Shown here: piece after piece, positions 16,269 to 33,013 of the stretch
Position numbering within the stretch: position 1 is the stretch's first letter
Layout: each line of letters opens with the position of its first letter
The notes under the pieces: model-generated
Databases searched by the model: none
The model's input: only the letters and a program-made list of their open reading frames with translations
What the model was told of the DNA's origin: nothing
Made by a program: the position numbers and the translations under genes
Assembly (NCBI GenBank): GCA_903900845.1
Contig: CAIUOU010000004.1
Span: 1-38,892 of the forward strand
Direction of reading: 5' to 3'
Origin: an uncultured Opitutia bacterium
Lineage (GTDB): Bacteria; Verrucomicrobiota; Verrucomicrobiia; Opitutales; Opitutaceae
Length of the DNA: 38,892 bases

Positions 16269-16276
16269 CCCCGCTT

Positions 16277-16475
16277 CCGCCCTAAGGGGTCAGGGCGTTA
16301 AATGTTTAAACCGAGTGCCTCGTAACCACCGTCAGGCTCAGTCCATCGCCGCTTACGAAGGCTACTCCAACCCCGCGCTACGGCGGATCATGGATCCAAA
16401 AAGCCTGCTATCAGCTCCTTACAATAACCTCCCGTAGCGAGGGGTTCGCTCTAAACATTCAACGCCCTGACCCCA
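16277..16475. repeat. REP module 1: inverted REP pair around a non-coding core
   Basis: The 14-bp core GGGGTCAGGGCGTT lies on the plus strand at 16286-16299 and inverted at 16461-16474. Flanks are shared with the other copies (CTAA before, TTTAAA/ATTC after). The 24 bases 16277-16300 are identical to 27424-27447. The core between the arms, 16310-16450, has no credible gene; it holds a 15-bp inverted repeat with one mismatch (16369-16383 with 16432-16446) separated by 48 bases. Together with 16510-16597 this accounts for the gap between the MBOAT and RAYT genes. Confidence 0.85.
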
Positions 16476-16509
16476 TAAAAAAGGGGTCAGGGCGTTGAAT
16501 GTTTTTTTT
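16453..16509 (+). terminator. Plus-strand intrinsic-terminator-like hairpin upstream of RAYT
   Basis: Two back-to-back inverted REPs form a perfect 22-bp stem (16453-16474 with 16483-16504), an 8-base A-rich loop, and a T8 run at 16502-16509 on the plus strand. On the minus strand the hairpin is not followed by a T run, so any termination should be plus-strand biased. It lies 88 bases before the RAYT start and would block rightward readthrough into that gene. Confidence 0.7.
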
Positions 16510-17570
16510 GCCGCCACGTCCCCTCCAGGTGCGCTGACCCAAGATTCAGGTAGTACGGCCGGTGGCGATCAGGCGTGCGCCGTGAGTCGATGTGTTCATG
16601 CCCCGCATGCCACGAATTCAATATGAAGGCGCGCTTTACCACGTGATAAATCGCGGAAACTACCGTCGTGCCATTTTCGAAACGACCGGTGCTGCCCACG
16701 CTTTTGAGGCGGTGCTGTCCGAGACCTGCCTGCGGCACAGGTGGCGGGTTCACGCCTACGCCATCATGCGGAATCACTTTCATTTGGCGCTGGAGACCCC
16801 TCAGGCGAATTTGGTCGAAGGCATGCACTGGCTGCAGGGAACGTTTGCCTCACGGTTCAATCGCTTTCGCGAGGAGCACGGGCATTTGTTCCAGGGCCGT
16901 TACAAGGCGCTTTTGGTCGAGGATGCCACCGCGTTGATGCGCGTCGTTCACTATATCCATCTCAATCCGGTTCGCGCCGCAGTGGTTCCACCGGCAAGTT
17001 GCGCAACCTTCCGCTGGGGCAGTCTGCCTAAGCTGCGCCGGCCGGAGCGCCCGGTTTGGTTGGCGGCCGATATCCTGATTTCTCGGATGGGCTTCCCGGA
17101 CTCCGCCGCCGGGTGGAGGCGGTATGCCGGGTTCCTGGCGGAACTCGCGGCAAACACATCGGAGCAGGCGAAACTGGAATTCGATCGGCTCTCCTCCGGT
17201 TGGGCCATCGGAACTCAGGCGTGGCGATCCGCCTTGGCGAAGGAATACCAACAGTTGTCCCTGCACCCGGGGTTGGAACGCCGCGAATTGCGCATGCTCC
17301 GGGAGGAGCAGTGGCGCGAGTCATTCGATCGCGTGATGGCTGAGTTGGGAAAGCCGCGGGAAGCTTTGGCGAACGAAGCGTCCGACGTGGGTTGGAAGAT
17401 CGCCGCCGCGGCTCGCTTGCGCAGTCGCGGCGTACCTTACTCTTGGATCAGTCGAGAGCTTATTCTGAGGTGCGACAGCAAACTACGCGGTCAGGTGTTC
17501 CAATTCCGGAGGGCCCATGGCACGGACGGCCCCCGGGGGGGAGATTCTCAACAATCAACGCCCTGACCCC
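16483..17570 (+). mobile_element. REPtron: RAYT gene bounded by inverted REP sequences (module 2)
   Basis: The REP core is at 16483-16496 (plus) and 17557-17570 (inverted), enclosing the RAYT coding sequence in the same plus/minus arrangement as the gene-free modules on each side. Spacers of 8 bases separate the modules (16475-16482 and 17571-17578). RAYT genes flanked by the REPs they are thought to mobilise are called REPtrons. This one is antisense to the EPS cluster and looks lower in GC than its neighbours, consistent with a separate history. No IS200/IS605 accessory gene is present. Confidence 0.85.
16598..17566 (+). CDS. REP-associated tyrosine transposase (RAYT, Y1/HUH family)
   Basis: 322 aa. 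The Y1 transposase domain of the TnpA_REP type spans about residues 5-130. It has RIQYEGALYHVINRGNYR at the N-terminus, the HUH motif in MRNHFHLALETP (near residue 57), GHLFQGRYKALLV, and the likely catalytic Tyr in VVHYIHLNPVRA (near residue 119). A C-terminal extension of about 190 residues follows with a possible DNA-binding helix (VGWKIAAAARLRSRG). RAYTs nick and join single-stranded REP hairpins. The start is taken as ATG 16598; a GTG at 16592 and an ATG at 16607 are alternatives. The stop codon (TGA at 17564-17566) and last three residues (STP) lie in the flanking REP. It is the only plus-strand gene in the window. Confidence 0.94.
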   Translation: MPRMPRIQYEGALYHVINRGNYRRAIFETTGAAHAFEAVLSETCLRHRWRVHAYAIMRNHFHLALETPQANLVEGMHWLQGTFASRFNRFREEHGHLFQGRYKALLVEDATALMRVVHYIHLNPVRAAVVPPASCATFRWGSLPKLRRPERPVWLAADILISRMGFPDSAAGWRRYAGFLAELAANTSEQAKLEFDRLSSGWAIGTQAWRSALAKEYQQLSLHPGLERRELRMLREEQWRESFDRVMAELGKPREALANEASDVGWKIAAAARLRSRGVPYSWISRELILRCDSKLRGQVFQFRRAHGTDGPRGGDSQQSTP

Positions 17571-17604
17571 TTATGGATGGGGTCAGGGCGTTTGGTGTTT
17601 TTTT
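17557..17604 (+). terminator. Plus-strand terminator-like hairpin at the RAYT 3' end
   Basis: Inverted REP cores 17557-17570 and 17579-17592 form a perfect 14-bp stem with an 8-base loop. After TGGTG comes a T7 run at 17598-17604 on the plus strand. The RAYT stop codon lies inside the left arm. It should end RAYT transcription before it runs antisense into the acyltransferase gene. Confidence 0.7.
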
Positions 17605-17747
17605 AGGGAGCTGCGCTCGCGGTGGCCTTGGATCGGGGAGTTGCGCAAGGGCCTAATTCAAAGGTCGTTACTCTGTAGAAATGGGATCAAGCGGGGAGCG
17701 GGGGAGCTTGCAGTCGATAATCTAAACGCCCAACGCCCTGACCCCTT
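17579..17747. repeat. REP module 3: inverted REP pair with a short non-coding core
   Basis: Cores lie at 17579-17592 (plus) and 17732-17745 (inverted), with a core of about 140 bases between. That core has no convincing gene; a near direct repeat GGGAGCTGCGC/GGGAGTTGCGC (about 17606 and 17636) is the only structure noticed. The right REP ends 8 bp before the stop codon of the acyltransferase gene. Confidence 0.8.
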
Positions 17748-17753
17748 TGGCGG

Positions 17754-18752
17754 CTAGGCGAAGAGGGTGCGATAGGTGCGGTCGGCGAGGGGGACGCGTG
17801 CGCGGAGCGAGGTGGTGGCGACGACGCCGGCGATCGTGAGCGTTCCAGCGAAGGCCATCGCGAGCACGGTATCCGGAGGGCCGAGTCCCGCGGCCCGCAG
17901 TCCACGGAAAAGCATCTGCAGCGCCGCGATCTGTAGCAGGTAGGCGGGCAAAGAATTCCGTCCGAGCAGGCGCAACCCGGACATTCCGGGGAACCGCGGG
18001 GATAGTCGCCTTCCAGCCGTGTAAAGCGTGGCCAGGGTCACCATGATCAAGCCGCTCGTCAGCGGAAACCCCGGCTCGCCGCCCGAGATGATCACCTGCA
18101 GCAGCACGAAGAGAAGCAGCGGCCCGGCCGGATGACACAGCGCGGGCGGCAGGTTTCCGAGCCTCGCGCCGCCGACCACCACGCCAAGCAGGCCCAAGGC
18201 CGCGAGCTCCAGGTTAAGCGGTGGCGCGGAAAAAATCGAAAGGACCACCGTGCCGCCGAAAACCGTGGAACCCAGCAGCAGCAGGCCGCCGCGTCCCCCG
18301 CGACCGCACGCCAGCAGGGCGCCGGAAGCGGCCAGCACGTAGGCGATGGGCAGCAACACGCCAAACACCGCCGCGCGTACTTCGCCTGGGCCGAGGATCA
18401 CGCCGAGGCGCCCCGCAAATTCCTCCAGATCAAGCCTGCGATTGTAACTGGCCGGCAAGAGGGCGTGGGCGAGCACGTTCAGCGCAAGAAACAGTGCGAG
18501 GATGCGCCACCCGCGCCACCACAGCCGGCCCGGCAGACCGCTCTCGCCCGCCGACCAGCGAGGCAAGTAAAGCCGTCCCACGCCGAGCCCGGCGAGAAAC
18601 ACGAACGCCCCCGGTAGAAAGCGTAGATGACGCAGTACCGCCTGATCCGCCCCGCTGTAATTAACCGCATGATACGCGACCATGCACAGCACCAGCGCCC
18701 CACGCGTGAAGTCCAGCGCGTGGTCGCGGCTTCTCTCGGCTCCGACCCTCAT
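17754..18752 (-). CDS. Multi-pass membrane acyltransferase (HGSNAT/OpgC/acyltransferase-3-like)
   Basis: 332 aa with about ten hydrophobic helices. The N-terminal motif DHALDFTRGALVLCMVAYHA resembles the D..RG....MV..H signature of membrane acyltransferases that modify sugars (the HGSNAT/DUF1624, OpgC and acyltransferase-3 group), with His in helix 1 as the likely catalytic residue. The C-terminal LRLLGRNSLPAYLLQIAALQ is also typical (G.nSL..Y..q). It probably adds acyl groups to EPS residues. The start ATG 18752 overlaps the deacetylase stop as ATGA; an open frame continues upstream but overlaps that gene. It ends directly at REP module 3. The exact family is uncertain. Confidence 0.78.
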   Translation of the reverse strand: MRVGAERSRDHALDFTRGALVLCMVAYHAVNYSGADQAVLRHLRFLPGAFVFLAGLGVGRLYLPRWSAGESGLPGRLWWRGWRILALFLALNVLAHALLPASYNRRLDLEEFAGRLGVILGPGEVRAAVFGVLLPIAYVLAASGALLACGRGGRGGLLLLGSTVFGGTVVLSIFSAPPLNLELAALGLLGVVVGGARLGNLPPALCHPAGPLLLFVLLQVIISGGEPGFPLTSGLIMVTLATLYTAGRRLSPRFPGMSGLRLLGRNSLPAYLLQIAALQMLFRGLRAAGLGPPDTVLAMAFAGTLTIAGVVATTSLRARVPLADRTYRTLFA

Positions 18753-27423: not shown

Positions 27424-27500
27424 CCGCCCTAAGGGGTCAGGGCGTTAGGCGTTTAAAGAGCTTACGGATTAAACGCTTAACGCCCTGACCCCTTAGCGGG
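27424..27500. repeat. Minimal REP pair (inverted) in the gap before the six-hairpin gene
   Basis: Cores GGGGTCAGGGCGTT at 27433-27446 (plus) and 27479-27492 (inverted) lie 60 bases end to end. Extended arms (TTAGGCGTTTAAA and TTAAACGCTTAA) pair around a loop of about ten bases. On either side the arms are CCGCCCTAA and TTAGCGGG. It fills the gap between the fusion gene and the six-hairpin gene and overlaps the stop codon of the fusion gene. Confidence 0.9.
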
Positions 27501-29666
27501 GGGCGTCGCTGGGTGTGGTGACGTTGGCTTCACTCCGGTTTCACGGGCGCTTCCGTCGCGGATCACGTCGTCTATCAACCGGAGATAGTCGGCCTCGCGG
27601 GACTCCCAATTGTTGCGCGCGGCGTACTCGAGCGCCTTGGCCACGCGGGTGCGGGTTCCCTCGGTGTCGCGCAGTGCGTCGAGCATGGCGCGAGCCAGGG
27701 AGCCGGCGTCGCCGGGCTGGAAGAATCTCACCACGGAGTCGTCAAAATAGTGCCGGTCTATCCGCGTGCCTGCAACCACCACAGGAACACCTAACGCCAT
27801 GAACTCCATGATCTTGGTGCTGTAAGCCTCGTTACCGAAGGTGTCGGCTCGTTTCGGGACAATGCCCAGGTCCGCTCCCGCCATCACCTCGGCGATGTCC
27901 CGTACCGGTACCGGGTCGTGGAACCGCACGATACCGCGACAATCGAGTTCGGCCGCGAGGGCCACCAACGCCGGCTTCATGCTGCCGTCTCCGTAAAAAT
28001 GCAGCTCGGCGTCCGGAATCTCGGCGCTGACCTCCCGGAATGCTAGGAGCGCGAGGTCAAGTCCCTGATGCCAATGCAGGCTACCTGGGAAAAGTATCAC
28101 CGTCCGATGGTCGGTGCGCCGTCTGAGGCCTGGGCGATGGACCCGGGAGTCGACGTGGTTGAGGAAAACCGAGCAACGTCCGGCGGTGCCGGTGCGGGCG
28201 GCGTACTTGTCCCGCCAAAGGTGGTTGGAGACGATGATGTGGTCCGCCGCCGCGGCGGAGGCGCGTTCGAGCAGTTGGAGAAGCGAGCCGGAGAAACCGG
28301 GCCTCCCGTCGCGGAATTTGGCCGCGTAGAACTCCGGGGTGAGGTCGTGGATGTCGAGAATCACGCGGGTGCCCCGTCGGCGCAGCAGCCTGGTCGCGAG
28401 CACGAGGAAATCCGGCATGTTATGCACGTGGACCAAGTCGAAGGGGCGATGGGCCGATTCCGCCGCGAGCCAACGGGCAGCCCGCCAGAGGAAGCGGAGT
28501 GCCGGGCGCAGGTGGCCAAGGGGAGAGCGCTCATTTTTGACGAAGCGATCGTCCAGCCGGTGCACCTTCACGCCTGAGAGGGTGGTGCTCACCGGATCGC
28601 TCTGGTGCCTTCGCAGGGCCAGCACCTCCACCCAATCGCCGCGCGCGGCCAGTGATTCCGCGTAACGCAACACCCGGTTGTCCTGCTCGTAGCATGATTG
28701 CGTTAGAAGGCAGATCCGGCGCGGCCGGGCGCAGGGCGGGCGCGGGGCGATGGTGTTCACGTGGGCGGCGACCTCGCGCGGCAGCGCGTGCCACGCCTGG
28801 TCGCCGTGACGGTCGCGGACGTGTGCGAGCAACGAGGTGTAGCAGGCGACGGGATATGTGCGGGCCGAGGCGGGTTCTCCCTCGAGGCACAGATAGTCCG
28901 GGTGGACATTCACGAGCGCCATGCCGCCGTGCTCGGCGATCCAGTCTAGCTTGCGGAGCCAGATTGCCGGGGATGCCTCCTGCAAAAGTAGAAACAGCGT
29001 CGAGTCCTGCGGCAGCGTGTAGGGCAGCTCCACGTAGCCATCGCGCTCCCTCTTTGCCCCAGGTGCGGGGATCCAGAACGGGAAGATGGTTCCCGCACCT
29101 TCCGACTGGGGCTCGAAGGGGTCTGTATCAAAGGTCGAGGAATCCCAGCTGATCGCGAGATCGTGCAACCATTCGAGTCTCCGCAGCATGAAGCCGGCGC
29201 GAAACCCGGTGGCTCCCCAGTCCCGTAGTCGGTGGTTGATCCGCGCTGCCTTCGCGGAAAAGCCGCGACGGGAAGTGAAAAGTTTTCCGTCATGATGCAG
29301 GTCGTGGACGCCAACCTCGAAGCCATTGGCGAGCAGCCAGACGCGCAACTCTTTGGGTGCTGCATAGGCCCCCTCGGGAACAAAATTGAAGCAGGAGCGG
29401 AAGCCGAGTCGCATCTCCAGCTCAGCGAGCGCGCGGCACTTGGCGAGCCCCGCCGGTCCCTCGACGTCGTGGGTGATCACGAAGGCGAAGCGCCGATCAT
29501 GGGGCCAGCCGGGCCAACCAACCGGTGGCCTAGGCGATCCCGGGTCTATCGGCCAGGTAGCGGCGAAGCGCCGGCGGAGTCCGGACGCGGCGTTGCGGCG
29601 GAGCGCCATGCGCAGACGCCACGGCAGCAGCGGCTTCACCGCATAATAGCAACGATGCAAAAACAT
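27477..29666 (-). CDS. Fusion of polysaccharide deacetylase-like domain and GT4 glycosyltransferase
   Basis: 729 aa. The N-terminal domain (about residues 55-330) looks like a divergent NodB deacetylase: RRFAFVITHDVEGPAG in place of TFDD, GFEVGVHDLHHDGKLF with paired histidines, GFRAGFMLRRLEWL, and ALVNVHPDYL. After a Pro/Arg linker (PRPPCARPRR) the second domain (about 350-700) is a GT-B enzyme: RRICLLTQSCYEQDNRVLRY, LVHVHNMPDFLVLATRLL, HRTVILFPGSLHWHQGLDLA, and the donor site AYSTKIMEFMALGVPVVVAG. It probably couples transfer of an acetamido sugar to its deacetylation. The frame shows no stop or shift between domains. The last codons (KGSGR and TAA) are REP sequence. The deacetylase half lacks some canonical residues. 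Confidence 0.85.
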   Translation of the reverse strand: MFLHRCYYAVKPLLPWRLRMALRRNAASGLRRRFAATWPIDPGSPRPPVGWPGWPHDRRFAFVITHDVEGPAGLAKCRALAELEMRLGFRSCFNFVPEGAYAAPKELRVWLLANGFEVGVHDLHHDGKLFTSRRGFSAKAARINHRLRDWGATGFRAGFMLRRLEWLHDLAISWDSSTFDTDPFEPQSEGAGTIFPFWIPAPGAKRERDGYVELPYTLPQDSTLFLLLQEASPAIWLRKLDWIAEHGGMALVNVHPDYLCLEGEPASARTYPVACYTSLLAHVRDRHGDQAWHALPREVAAHVNTIAPRPPCARPRRICLLTQSCYEQDNRVLRYAESLAARGDWVEVLALRRHQSDPVSTTLSGVKVHRLDDRFVKNERSPLGHLRPALRFLWRAARWLAAESAHRPFDLVHVHNMPDFLVLATRLLRRRGTRVILDIHDLTPEFYAAKFRDGRPGFSGSLLQLLERASAAAADHIIVSNHLWRDKYAARTGTAGRCSVFLNHVDSRVHRPGLRRRTDHRTVILFPGSLHWHQGLDLALLAFREVSAEIPDAELHFYGDGSMKPALVALAAELDCRGIVRFHDPVPVRDIAEVMAGADLGIVPKRADTFGNEAYSTKIMEFMALGVPVVVAGTRIDRHYFDDSVVRFFQPGDAGSLARAMLDALRDTEGTRTRVAKALEYAARNNWESREADYLRLIDDVIRDGSARETGVKPTSPHPATPPAKGSGR

Positions 29667-29678
29667 CCTCGATATGTC

Positions 29679-29747
29679 CGCCTAAGGGGTCAGGGCGTTG
29701 GGCGTTTGAAAGGGTGGAGATTTAAACGCTTAACGCCCTGACCCCTT
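29679..29747. repeat. Minimal REP pair (inverted) in the gap before the fusion gene
   Basis: Cores at 29686-29699 (plus) and 29732-29745 (inverted) are again 60 bases end to end, with arms GGGCGTTTGAA and TTTAAACGCTTAA. It occupies nearly the whole 87-bp gap between the Wzc-like stop (29754) and the start of the fusion gene (29666). Confidence 0.9.
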
Positions 29748-29753
29748 TGGGGG

Positions 29754-31952
29754 TTAGGGGGTGGCGAGGTGGTCTTCGTGCAGAAGGGCGGGGATGTAGC
29801 GGCGGCTGCGGTTCAGGACCACGCCGGCGCGGGCTCCGGAGGCTTCGAGTAATCCCAGGGCGCGGCGGGCGACGTCGCGATCGGTGCGTTCGGCTTCAAC
29901 GACCACCAGCACCAGATCCATGAACGACGCGAGGCGGGGGGTGACGCTGATCTGGCTCACGGGAGGCATGTCAAAAATCACGTAGTCAAAGGAGCTCGAT
30001 TTCAGGCGCGGAACGAGGCCGCGGAAGCGCCGGGGAAGGTTGCTCGAGGCCCCGCCTTGCGCCGTGTCCTCCGCGGCGATGAAAAGATTGGCACCTGCCA
30101 CCCCCGCCGGTCCGTTCGAGAGCATTTCCTCCAGGCCGCCGGCGGCCCGGCCGTGCAAAAAGTGATGTGCCGAGCCGCTGGAGCCGGCAAAGCTCACCAG
30201 CAGCACGCTGCCGTCGCCAGTCTCGGAAAAGCTGCGCGCCAGCCCGGCCGCGGTCGTCGATACGCCGGCCCCGCGACCCAATCCAGTCACCGCGACCAAC
30301 TTGGGTCTATGCGTGAGCCCGCGCGCCTCGAAGTCGGCGATGAGGCGGTCGCGCAAAGTTTCATGGAACGGCCGGAGCGGATGCGGACGCGGGGGAGGTG
30401 CTCCTTCGGGCTCGGGCTTGCCCGGGGCGAGGAGCGCGGCCACCCCCTCGAGGTTTCGTCGCGGTTGGAGGGGGATATCAATCAGGAGCGGGGTGCGCAG
30501 CTCGCGTTCCACATCGACGGAACGCTTGAGGGAGCGGTCGAGGTACCACTCCGTGAGGAACGCCCACGCGAGGCCGACCAAGAGACCGCCCGCGAGGAGC
30601 ATCCCAGCGGTGCGCCGCGTTCCGCCGCTATCGGCGAACGGCGGTGACGGAGTCTGAATCTGGCTGATGTTCGCAACTCGCCCTCCGCCGAGGGTCTGGC
30701 CGATGCGCTCCTGTTCCAAGCTGGCCGCGTAACGCCGAAGGTTGGTGTCCTCCAGGTCGCGCTGCCGCCGCAACTCCTGGATCCGGCCTTCGGATTCCTC
30801 GGCGCGTGTGTGCTCGGCGCGCGCCTCCTCCAAGCCGCGGGAGAGCACCGCGACGCGGGCCTCGAGCGCCGCGACGTGCGCGGCGGCTTCCTCCGTGCGG
30901 CCGGGGTCCGCAAGCCTTCCGGGCGCACCGGAATGTTCAGCCAGCGCCGGGTGATCGACCATCAGGGCGTCCCGCCGCGCCAGCAACAGGTCCAGCCGTT
31001 CCCGGACCTCGCGCACGCGGCCGCTTTCCGGGGTGAATTGCGCGAGCAACTCGCGCTCCACTTGCCTTAGCTGCAGCGCCTGCTGCACGAGTCCTTCGTA
31101 AGCGGTGGCGATTTCCGGCGGCGGGGTCGGGCCGGCCAGGGAAACGGCCGGTTCGCGCCGGCGGAGGCGCTCGAGGAGGGCTGACCGTTCGGCCAGGCCG
31201 GCCTGAGCCAGCAACAATTCGCGCCGGAGGCCCGAGATCCTTTCCGCCTGCTCGCGGCGGGCGTCCTCGGGTGAGATTACGCCGGCGGCGGCGGTGGCCT
31301 TTCGCAGTTCTTCCTCGGTGCGGGCCAGGCGCGCCCGCAGGCGGTCGGTTTCCTGGGACAGCACATCGCCGACGAGCCCGTTGGCGGTGTGGGTCTCAAG
31401 GTGCAAACGCAGATATCGGCTGATGAGATCGCGGAGAATGGGCTGCACCAACTCGGGATCCGGGTGCCGAAAAGCGATGTGAATGACGCTCGTGGCCGGA
31501 GCCACGCGGATGGAGAGATTGGAGCGCACCGCGGCGACGGCCCCGGCCGGTCCACCCGCCGCTCCCATCGGACCGAGGATCCGCTCGGGACCGGTCGCGT
31601 CGACCACCTGGCGAACCAGATCAAGGCTGCCGAGGATTTCCGCCTCCGACTTCATGATGGTGTCACCCCGCGGATCCGGGGACTTCGCGCCGGCTTCCCC
31701 GCCGAGCGCGCGACTCTCGGAGAGCACGTAACGCACCAGCAGCTTGGCTTCCGATTCGTAAGGCGGATCCCCGAGGAAGCGAACGGCCCCCGCGGCGACG
31801 GCGCCGGCCAGCGCGCACAGGAGGATCTTAACCTTGTGACGGAACAGCGTGTAGTAGATATCGCCCGCGGTGAGCGTGGCCGGCGTGGAAAACGGCGGTT
31901 CAGTGGAGTCGGCTGCGCGGTGGGGCGCTGAGGGCGCGGTGAGCGGATTCAT
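29754..31952 (-). CDS. Wzc-like polysaccharide chain-length protein with degenerate BY-kinase domain
   Basis: 732 aa. The N-terminal Wzz domain has TM1 near residues 43-60 (ILLCALAGAVAAGAVRF). A long coiled-coil region (residues about 190-430, rich in Arg/Glu/Leu) follows, then TM2 near 450-470 (TAGMLLAGGLLVGLAWAF). The C-terminal P-loop domain has VTGLGRGAGVSTTAAGLA near residue 555, where Val replaces the Walker-A lysine. The A' region reads SVLLVSFAGSS instead of DXD, while the B motif FDYVIFDMPP is kept. The C-terminus has one Tyr only, not a Tyr cluster. Such proteins regulate glycan length and export with an OPX partner; kinase activity is doubtful here. ATG 31952 overlaps the FemAB-like stop as ATGA. 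Confidence 0.88.
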   Translation of the reverse strand: MNPLTAPSAPHRAADSTEPPFSTPATLTAGDIYYTLFRHKVKILLCALAGAVAAGAVRFLGDPPYESEAKLLVRYVLSESRALGGEAGAKSPDPRGDTIMKSEAEILGSLDLVRQVVDATGPERILGPMGAAGGPAGAVAAVRSNLSIRVAPATSVIHIAFRHPDPELVQPILRDLISRYLRLHLETHTANGLVGDVLSQETDRLRARLARTEEELRKATAAAGVISPEDARREQAERISGLRRELLLAQAGLAERSALLERLRRREPAVSLAGPTPPPEIATAYEGLVQQALQLRQVERELLAQFTPESGRVREVRERLDLLLARRDALMVDHPALAEHSGAPGRLADPGRTEEAAAHVAALEARVAVLSRGLEEARAEHTRAEESEGRIQELRRQRDLEDTNLRRYAASLEQERIGQTLGGGRVANISQIQTPSPPFADSGGTRRTAGMLLAGGLLVGLAWAFLTEWYLDRSLKRSVDVERELRTPLLIDIPLQPRRNLEGVAALLAPGKPEPEGAPPPRPHPLRPFHETLRDRLIADFEARGLTHRPKLVAVTGLGRGAGVSTTAAGLARSFSETGDGSVLLVSFAGSSGSAHHFLHGRAAGGLEEMLSNGPAGVAGANLFIAAEDTAQGGASSNLPRRFRGLVPRLKSSSFDYVIFDMPPVSQISVTPRLASFMDLVLVVVEAERTDRDVARRALGLLEASGARAGVVLNRSRRYIPALLHEDHLATP

Positions 31953-33013
31953 GCGAGACGGGGATGGAGGAAGGCGCCGATGGCGCGGAGGACGGGCAAC
32001 GGGAGTCGGCGGAAAAGATGCGTCGGCCAGGTTCCGGCTCGGTCCGGGGCGGGGAGTGGGCGGCCGTTCCGCGGATCGAGGCGAGTGTAGGCGATGTCGT
32101 GCTCGACCGCTCCCCAGGAGAGTTTGTAGCGCCGCAGGCCCTCGGCGCCGACCGACGTGCGGCCGAGATGGAGTTCCACGCAGCCCTGCCGAGCGAGGTG
32201 CGCCGCGGAGTCCGCCATCAGCAGATGATTGGGCCGGAAAGCGTGGTGATCGGGATCCGAGGCGCCGTACTTGTACAACGCGCGTTGGCCGTGCCGCAGG
32301 AAGACCGCCCCGGCGAGATCCCGGCCGCTCCGGGTGGCGAGCGCCACGAAACCCAACCCCGGCGCGATCAGCGCGGGTGACATGGCGGCGAAGAAACCCC
32401 AGGGCGCTGGAGGTGATCCGTGGCGTCGGCGAGTCCGGCAATAGAGCGCGTGAAAGCGTCGGAGCGCGGATTCGTCGTGGGAGAATTCGACTGCGACACC
32501 GGAGCGCACGGCTTTCCGCACGGCGCGGCGGACCGAGGGTGCGGCGCCCGCGGGAACCGGTGAATCCCCTGGATCCAGACACAGCGCATGACCGTGAAAG
32601 CGGGTGGAAGCCGCCCCTTCGGAAAGGGCGCCGTCACCCCTTAGTTCCAAGCATCGCCAGCCTGAGTCGGCGGCATGGCGCGCCATCGCGGCCTGCAGGA
32701 AGTGGCGCGCGTCCGCGCCGCGGGATAAAATCGGGCAGAAGTCGGCGAACGGAAGGGAGACTCCGCGAACACCCCGCGGCCAGACTGGAAGCTCCGTGAC
32801 GGGGAGGGCGGCCTCGATCGTTCCGTCCGCGGTGCTGGCGATTAAAATCCGGGTGCGGAACCCGTAGGCGGCATGCAACGCGCGCGACCACGCGGGTGAG
32901 TGGAACACCGTGGCGCCCGGGAGGTCCGCCGACGCGGCCGCCGTCGCGGGGTCGCTCCGAGGGTCAATCGAACGGATCCGAAGAGCGGCGGACACGGACG
33001 CCGCCGCGTTCAC
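31949..33013 (-). CDS. FemAB-like GNAT protein, EPS/exosortase-cluster type
   Basis: 354 aa. It begins with a start region (SIDPRSDPATAAA) and ATVFHSPAWSRALHAAYGFR, the typical opening of FemAB-related proteins (PEP-CTERM system type). A second GNAT half has VRRAVRKAVRSGVAVEFSHD, RDLAGAVFLRHGQRALYKYG and FRPNHLLMADSAAHLARQGC. It ends with LHLGRTSVGAEGLRRYKLSW. Such proteins may transfer acyl or aminoacyl groups to amino sugars. The start is GTG at 33013, overlapping the aminotransferase stop as GTGA; no ATG nearby gives a better N-terminus. The next gene start overlaps it as ATGA. Family assignment is likely; biochemical role is unknown. Confidence 0.82.
   Translation of the reverse strand: MNAAASVSAALRIRSIDPRSDPATAAASADLPGATVFHSPAWSRALHAAYGFRTRILIASTADGTIEAALPVTELPVWPRGVRGVSLPFADFCPILSRGADARHFLQAAMARHAADSGWRCLELRGDGALSEGAASTRFHGHALCLDPGDSPVPAGAAPSVRRAVRKAVRSGVAVEFSHDESALRRFHALYCRTRRRHGSPPAPWGFFAAMSPALIAPGLGFVALATRSGRDLAGAVFLRHGQRALYKYGASDPDHHAFRPNHLLMADSAAHLARQGCVELHLGRTSVGAEGLRRYKLSWGAVEHDIAYTRLDPRNGRPLPAPDRAGTWPTHLFRRLPLPVLRAIGAFLHPRLA

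Follow-up and report, generated by a model that had tools for sequence, protein, structure and literature searches.

What is a single transposase gene doing in the middle of a regular series of inverted repeats? This question is raised by a stretch of DNA from an uncultured Opitutia bacterium, 38,892 nucleotides (nt) long, which we call the window. It corresponds to contig C4 in the genome that we label G000 (4.4 Mb, 205 contigs, 96% complete), and the host is probably a species of the Opitutaceae. Between positions 16286 and 17745 the sequence GGGGTCAGGGCGTT occurs six times, always exactly and with alternating strands. The copies delimit three modules of 189, 1088 and 167 bp, and the middle module carries a gene for a RAYT-type transposase (RAYT: REP-associated tyrosine transposase; REP: repetitive extragenic palindromic sequence). 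An earlier note on this DNA had reported the six copies and the three units, and all of its positions are exact.

Our proposal is that the locus consists of a TIRYT and a resident population of REPIN-like repeats, which has spread from the end sequence of the element. We give this reading a probability of about 0.8. TIRYTs are RAYT-like genes bracketed by terminal inverted repeats with the consensus GGGGWSAS, and the elements that they form are called TIRtrons (PMC3733652; Di Nocera and colleagues, 2013; here and below, papers are cited for individual passages and not as a whole). We describe the finding in these terms because TIRtrons, REPIN clusters beside RAYTs and REP variants at orthologous RAYTs are already known.

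The array has the following parts, in positions of the window:

16286-16299, 16483-16496 and 17579-17592, plus strand: exact copies of GGGGTCAGGGCGTT
16461-16474, 17557-17570 and 17732-17745, minus strand: exact copies of GGGGTCAGGGCGTT
16286-16474, no strand assigned: module 1, an inverted REP pair with exact arms around 161 nt without a detected relative; the inside is unlike the other long units and the modules of the related genome G019
16483-17570, plus strand: module 2, the transposase-carrying unit between inverted arms; its layout matches that of G019 (locus L133, with a single mismatch in the left arm)
16598-17566, plus strand: the RAYT/TIRYT gene, 322 amino acids; ATG at 16598 (GTG at 16592 in the list of open reading frames), TGA at 17564-17566 inside the right arm
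17579-17745, no strand assigned: module 3, an inverted REP pair by its arm matches, around 139 nt without a detected relative in comparisons of the insides
16269-16299, plus strand: left outer arm with its C-rich flank (CCGCCCTAA followed by GGGGTCAGGGCGTT); a short CGCCCT/AGGGCG hairpin is possible, and the fold is weak (z -0.90)
17732-17762, minus strand: right outer arm with its flank TTTGGCGG; the fold is weak (z -1.59)

The array and its transposase

The protein has the features expected of the family. Its HUH motif is H60-F-H62, the catalytic tyrosine is Tyr119, and a Y---NP motif is present. The Pfam family Y1_Tnp matches it with an E value of 4.4e-15. H60, H62, Tyr119 and N123-P124 are invariant across 13 aligned RAYT sequences, an alignment that left out L076 and L084, which contain stop codons. 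The predicted fold (mean pLDDT 81.6) is closest to structure 4er8, TnpAREP with a REP hairpin (E 1.4e-06), and then to the ISDra2 transposase. A search of solved structures with the single window sequence returned nothing at E 0.01; a profile search returned the ISDra2 transposases at 0.012 and 4er8 at 0.099. The predicted model has a helical C-terminal part. Twenty named loci hold relatives of this RAYT. They come mostly from metagenome assemblies of Opitutaceae or Verrucomicrobiota; two are labelled Akkermansia muciniphila and one weak match is from Vibrio.

The ends of module 2 point to the type of element. The sequence GGGGTCAG stands at either end of the module and fits GGGGWSAS, the published consensus of TIRYT elements (PMC3733652). 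Contrary to the earlier note, the motif is not unusual.

What do the three modules have in common? The earlier note likened the neighbours of the RAYT unit to non-autonomous relatives. In the sense of deletion derivatives this reading is unsupported: the modules share their arms only. The insides of modules 1 and 3 show no similarity above z 2.5 to each other, to the RAYT leader or to their G019 counterparts, except for half-REP pieces and the leader itself. Neither module contains a convincing reading frame in the window's list of open reading frames, and both are on this ground probably non-coding.

The leader of the gene is 115 and 117 nt long in G000 and G019, against 60-68 nt in 14 of 15 relatives and 92 nt in the remaining one, and the extra part contains an inverted half-REP:

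16531-16541, minus strand: inverted half-REP in the RAYT leader that can pair with the left arm; G019 has a similar half-REP, and a leader hairpin spanning 16483-16541 is possible

It is our guess that this pairing limits RAYT expression.

The repeat population

The repeats extend far beyond the array. In G000, GGGGTCAGGGCGTT occurs in 131 exact copies (66 forward, 65 reverse), compared to 0 for the pattern read backwards. We fetched the regions around every listed copy in G000 and G019, and a recount recovered all 131 and all 85 copies. Within the window, matches with up to three mismatches number 22, where 7.95 are expected (standard deviation, sd, 3.10); 0 of 100 shuffled sequences reach 22.

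Most of the copies form inverted pairs. Counting a plus arm followed by a minus arm, with at most two mismatches and a length under 300 nt, yields 57 units in G000 and 33 in G019. In G000 the units are either 56-76 nt long (46 units; the mode is 71 nt, n=15) or 125-235 nt (11 units). In G019 they measure 38-77 nt (23 units) or 126-244 nt (10 units). The window itself has two further pairs, which the earlier note had missed:

27433-27492, no strand assigned: short REPIN, 60 nt, hairpin z -9.59; its right arm covers the end of a glycosyltransferase gene, and G019 has no REPIN there
29686-29745, no strand assigned: short REPIN, 60 nt, hairpin z -10.32; G019 has a REPIN at the corresponding place

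At 27433 G019 has a different, longer intergenic stretch and no clean empty site. Whether units are extragenic was checked for those in the window, and one of these REPINs overlaps a gene end.

The arm in G000 reads GGGGTCAGGGCGTT-N-N-N-Y-GTT. Its positions 15-18 vary, and the GTT at 19-21 is constant in all 114 arms. At position 15 the 131 exact G000 copies have G 94 times, T 19 times, A 17 times and C once. G019 has C there in 85 of 85 copies, also at the REPIN shared by both genomes and in the RAYT array. A single arm forms no strong stem-loop itself, as the weak folds of the two outer arms show.

Does the inverted pair, then, behave as one unit? The REPIN characters are many copies, inverted repeats that form a hairpin and conduct as a unit. 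They are found here with 57 units, and the two short units that were folded give z values of about -10. For 49 unit pairs the similarity of the insides exceeds 72%, and of the 40 pairs displayed many differ in their flanks. The pairs L058/L059 and L034/L124 share more of their flanks than does the subfamily with partly common flanks described below; L034 and L124 are each situated at the end of a contig. By and large, the inverted pair acts as a single unit, like the REPINs of Pseudomonas fluorescens SBW25 (PMC3116915). A coordinated change of both arms within a unit was not seen: the short units of G000 score 1.67 out of 4 and re-paired arms score 1.75.

One of these pairs deserves a description of its own. 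A 175-nt unit occurs twice on contig C105 (L058, 1-700; L059, 3400-5000), with insides 99% alike and TTTTGTAA after both. Behind the second copy, a unit with a RAYT fragment follows directly after the 8-nt TTTTGTAA. At the end of contig C27 (L042, 8200-8773) the left flank of the first C105 copy stands immediately before the beginning of the unit that holds the RAYT fragment. This may be strain variation or a branch in the assembly.

The long units invite another explanation. The arms could be generic ends for any short DNA, and the long modules short pieces of host or foreign DNA captured between them. The 21 long units (125-244 nt) do have unrelated insides, and a related family or a common motif among them was rejected: no 6-mer or 7-mer rises above the shuffle maximum. 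However, most units are short and many of them fall into families, and we consider this explanation quite unlikely.

Relatives and the orthologous locus

If the repeats spread from the end of this transposase, then repeats and transposase should be found together. Among 27 genomes of the genus, 21 have a RAYT match. The exact core is present in five: G000 (131 copies), G019 (85), G009 (18), G007 (7) and G026 (2). The other 22 have 0 copies. A family sample of 250 genomes, which does not include G019, contains the core in 16, namely G000, G009, G007, G026 and twelve genomes with one copy each. A link between copy number and presence of this RAYT holds for the 131 and 85 copies and for the 22 genomes without any. 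It is in doubt for the 18 copies in G009 and the 7 in G007. It had also been said that a core equally common without this RAYT would speak against the link; this applies in part, since both genomes hold the core and their examined RAYTs lack that end. A RAYT-type gene that lies within a series of inverted REP-like pairs and is coupled to the repeat family, as first proposed, is what we find.

The repeats could also have little to do with the RAYT. They might be structural elements such as terminators or mRNA stabilisers, which selection retains and which multiply through recombination or through slippage in replication, with the RAYT being incidental. Such a role would suit the strong hairpins given by two short units and two junctions when folded, the REPIN kept at the corresponding place in G019, and the REPIN that supplies the end of a coding gene. 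Yet the repeat core is the RAYT's own end, and over the 27 genus genomes copy number largely tracks this RAYT. Twelve further genomes of the family sample have one copy each, and subfamilies of units sit in different flanks. We regard an incidental RAYT as very improbable.

The closest relative of the locus is found in G019. Its RAYT is the nearest in the genus (69% identical), and the same three-module array lies between the same genes; the MBOAT neighbour is 80% identical to that of the window. Besides the mismatch in the RAYT module, the G019 array has an extra decayed arm in module 3. A tree of 28 RAYT proteins joins the window and G019 as sisters at 100/100 and does not fix the position of this pair among the others; 11 of its 25 inner branches are well supported and 8 are open. 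The 28 proteins are those of 42 entered that passed filters on motif and length, and L080 equals L113 in sequence.

The earlier note asked for relatives with an empty site between the neighbouring genes, and they exist. In G011, G018 and G006 the MBOAT orthologue adjoins an OpgC-like gene, and the 700 nt shown contain neither a repeat nor a RAYT. In G010 the MBOAT gene was found and an OpgC-like match was not.

Between G000 and G019 the RAYT has a nonsynonymous divergence (dN) of 0.237 and a synonymous divergence (dS) of 1.596, and the MBOAT gene has 0.131 and 0.898 (NG86 method). Both ratios are about 0.15. In G000 the RAYT is present as one intact copy and one fragment on C105 (52% over residues 188-311, with two stops). 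Hence, with one intact copy, the same locus in two species and a low dN/dS, the gene looks domesticated and no longer spreading, as judged from these comparisons of sequences. The marks of domestication, which are a single copy, vertical inheritance and purifying selection, are present in two genomes only, which is little to build "vertical" on.

Elsewhere in the genus the picture differs. The genomes there contain up to 55 RAYT matches, counting fragments (the maximum is in G023). At 11 of 17 loci, G019's own among them, the gene lies between exact inverted repeats of 14 nt or more that contain GGGTCAGG, ends like those of insertion sequences (IS); the count scores L075 as a miss, with ends seen on both sides of its gene. 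We suggest that G000 and G019 represent a resident state and that the element is more mobile in the other genomes. Thus mobile and resident forms can be compared side by side among close relatives of one genus.

Such mobility raises the possibility that the window holds an ordinary mobile IS as well, a TIRtron that landed between two REP pairs and formed the array by accident. The many matches in the genus, the relatives with IS-like inverted ends and the fragment of a second RAYT unit on C105 would fit. So would identical 8-mers beside the RAYT in G019 (ATCCTGAC) and in G003 (GTCGGGAT), which are readable as a target duplication. On the other hand, the two 8-mers of the window are unequal, and the flanks of the IS-like relatives have no direct repeats by eye. 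Furthermore, the intact copy is single, its dN/dS is low, and G019 keeps the same locus with three modules despite a protein divergence of 31%. An ordinary IS is therefore unlikely.

For the TIRYT with a REPIN-like population, several points have to be set on the other side of the balance. Neither a transposition event nor polymorphism at the level of reads was observed. The conservation rests on two genomes, and the data are assemblies, several of them incomplete. The dS of the RAYT is above 1 and near saturation, so that the dN/dS of about 0.15 is rough. The protein scores 61.3 bits with NF047646 (REP-associated tyrosine transposase), short of the cut-off of 80. Pfam searches for a C-terminal helix-turn-helix (HTH) or Bac_DnaA_C-like domain gave no match in the window protein (E<=10) or in 13 members (E<=1). 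A GTAG or GTGG foot, the hallmark of canonical REPtrons, occurs in 0 of 114 G000 arms. The REPINs of one subfamily (L053, L054, L060, L069 and L070) have partly common flanks, thus its unit may be longer. Finally, none of the RAYTs examined in G009 (3 of 5 matches) and G007 (3 of 22) carries a GGGGTCAGGGCGTT-type end. Two of these six have other ends on both sides (GGGGTCAGGTTGAGG... and GGGGTCAGGTTGAAAC...), one has GGGGTCAGGCCGCTAG, and in three none was detected. G009 is 86% and G007 85% complete; hence a matching RAYT may lie among the remaining matches, be absent from the assembly or have been lost.

The REPINs of G009 (L160, L161 and L190-L192) have a structure of their own. They are near-perfect 53-nt palindromes, and the inner stem differs strongly among copies and stays self-complementary, as if one arm had been copied onto the other.

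The 8-nt junctions

The modules of the array are separated by 8 nt at both places, 16475-16482 (ATAAAAAA) and 17571-17578 (TTATGGAT). Together with the arms on either side, these gaps fold into hairpins:

16453-16504, no strand assigned: junction 1, a hairpin of 22 perfectly paired bp whose loop is the 8-nt ATAAAAAA; folded as DNA it gives -27.7 kcal/mol (z -11.73)
17549-17600, no strand assigned: junction 2, a hairpin whose core stem measures 13-14 bp, with TTATGGAT as its 8-nt loop; folded as DNA it gives -19.2 kcal/mol (z -7.69)

The gaps had been read as fixed 8-base spacers that separate units. Since they are the loops of -N8+ hairpins (a minus arm, 8 nt and a plus arm), the separator reading is unsupported. 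The 8-nt gaps are thus hairpin loops or end-to-end joints.

How common is this spacing? We counted close -/+ pairs with a degenerate core and a gap of 1-28 nt in the 27 genus genomes, and four genomes have such pairs. The 8-nt gap is the commonest in G000 (8 of 15) and in G019 (4 of 8). In G003 it occurs in one of nine pairs, where 13 nt is commonest (four of nine), and G024 has a single pair with 15 nt. With up to three mismatches, 14 of 29 pairs at a gap of at most 30 nt have 8 nt, and a few of the 29 are chance pairs. The overrepresentation is real, and "fixed" is too strong a word: 6, 7, 9, 16 and 17 nt occur among the other close gaps of G000. A second cluster of -/+ spacings lies at 16-20 nt in G000 and G019.

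One RAYT locus of G003, a genome with a slightly different core, also has 8-nt junctions on either side of the gene. There (L189, 2400-3850) the RAYT is enclosed by two copies of the same module in direct orientation; the junction to its left and to its right is GTCGGGAT, and the next junction is GTCGAAAT. In G019 the identical 8-mers ATCCTGAC that flank the RAYT module lie at L133, 5209-5216 and 6302-6309; the two of the window differ.

The bases beside the core are under constraint. Position -2 from the core is an A in 94% of the outer flanks (n=112) and in all 14 of the 8-nt junctions. Arms that face each other across 7-9 nt junctions agree more than re-paired arms do (2.71 out of 4 compared to 2.24, sd 0.21, fraction 0.022; 17 junctions, re-paired within each lineage). 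A pooled version of this test (0.0005) was discarded because it is inflated by the difference between lineages.

Did the units insert into hairpins that already existed? As a general rule this was rejected. The outer flanks of 56 isolated units are complementary at 4.79 of 12 positions and re-paired flanks at 4.52 (sd 0.18), which is no clear excess; the filter passed at least two flanks with a mutated arm (L133 and L146). For the array itself, complementarity between the outer flanks is seen in G019 (CTCCTCCCTAA and TTAGGGAGGAG) and in part in the window, two cases that are no proof. Flank and arm together fold slightly better than with shuffled flanks, in G000 (-5.98 compared to -5.41, sd 0.17) as in G019 (-5.60 compared to -4.99, sd 0.24). 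ACGCC is enriched in outer flanks (17 of 146, 6.5 expected, sd 2.5) with flanks containing GACCC excluded beforehand. That the outer flank is a relic of the opposite arm is suggestive only.

A mechanism can be drawn by analogy to E. coli TnpAREP and the IS200/IS605 family. On single-stranded REP, the E. coli protein carries out cleavage and recombination in vitro (PMC8266576). In single-stranded DNA, the transposase studied here would find its target in the GGGGTCAGG...GTT arm, bind the folded arm, cut at or near the outer edge of the arm and rejoin the ends. Whole inverted-pair units may then be copied or moved by the RAYT; the population, the unit structure and the common insides are what we observe. 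The array would be a REPIN-transposase-REPIN cluster in which arms of adjacent modules form -N8+ hairpins with each other. These 8 nt could be the loop of the hairpin; just as well, they could consist of two unit ends of 4 nt each, provided that units abut without a gap.

A bolder version makes the -N8+ hairpin both product and substrate of the transposase. The cut would fall 4 nt outside GGGG, units would be joined end to end, and arrays would grow by abutment. The three-module locus would be the master copy, with arm positions 15-18 setting the repeat type of the whole genome. Such a master would explain a 14-nt core that has stayed fixed alongside a position 15 that is mixed in G000 and uniform in G019, also at corresponding units. 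We consider this version doubtful. The 8-nt junction is a concrete prediction for the position of the cut.

How does the locus compare to known systems? With the TIRtrons of PMC3733652 it shares a RAYT-type Y1 transposase, GGGGWSAS inverted repeats and repeat families elsewhere in the genome that occur as dimers and clusters. These families are called moderately abundant and TIRYTs perhaps less productive than RAYTs (PMC3733652); here we find 131 copies, -N8+ hairpins, a locus of three modules that two species have retained, and a lineage-wide arm difference at one position. In SBW25 the inverted doublet is the unit and a REPIN cluster lies beside each RAYT (PMC3116915), as here, and the E. 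coli REPtron has three REPINs (PMC6006769). Unlike the SBW25 REPtron, our arms have no GTAG or GTGG foot, and the hairpin forms between arms. The GTAG repeats of O. terrae are of REP type, form many dimers and also belong to the Verrucomicrobia, but they are GTAG-tagged, have partners 1-2 bp apart and are a different repeat type (PMC3733652). Orthogroups of REP classes with lineage-specific variants beside orthologous RAYTs have been described (PMC3686654). Our repeats are lineage-specific at orthologous RAYT loci too, but they keep one 14-nt core and differ at position 15 and the bases around it.

The nearest protein class is TnpAY1 subclass 2.1, which equals RAYT group 1, has a C-terminal HTH or Bac_DnaA_C-like domain and includes 20 of 26 TIRYTs (PMC6006769). 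Our protein resembles it in its length, its GGGG[AT][CG]A[CG] ends and its Y---NP motif, and may belong to it. The passages of PMC6006769 on this subclass report no REP-like sequences near its genes. In contrast, we find a large REPIN-like population alongside a TIRYT-like protein that is single-copy and sits at one locus in two species. Among the papers that searches of an open-licence library listed, we found no description of the three-module array, of GGGGTCAGG repeats in Opitutaceae, of the 8-nt junction or of the lineage-wide arm difference.

The two short REPINs of the window lie in and near genes of another kind. The glycosyltransferase gene at 27477-29666 (minus strand) has its last codons inside the REPIN arm at 27477-27492, with the stop at 27477-27479. 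The region 27477-32582 contains genes of exopolysaccharide type, a Wzz or chain-length gene with a tyrosine-kinase-like end and the glycosyltransferase, and its matches to XrtA/PEP-CTERM families stay below the cut-offs.

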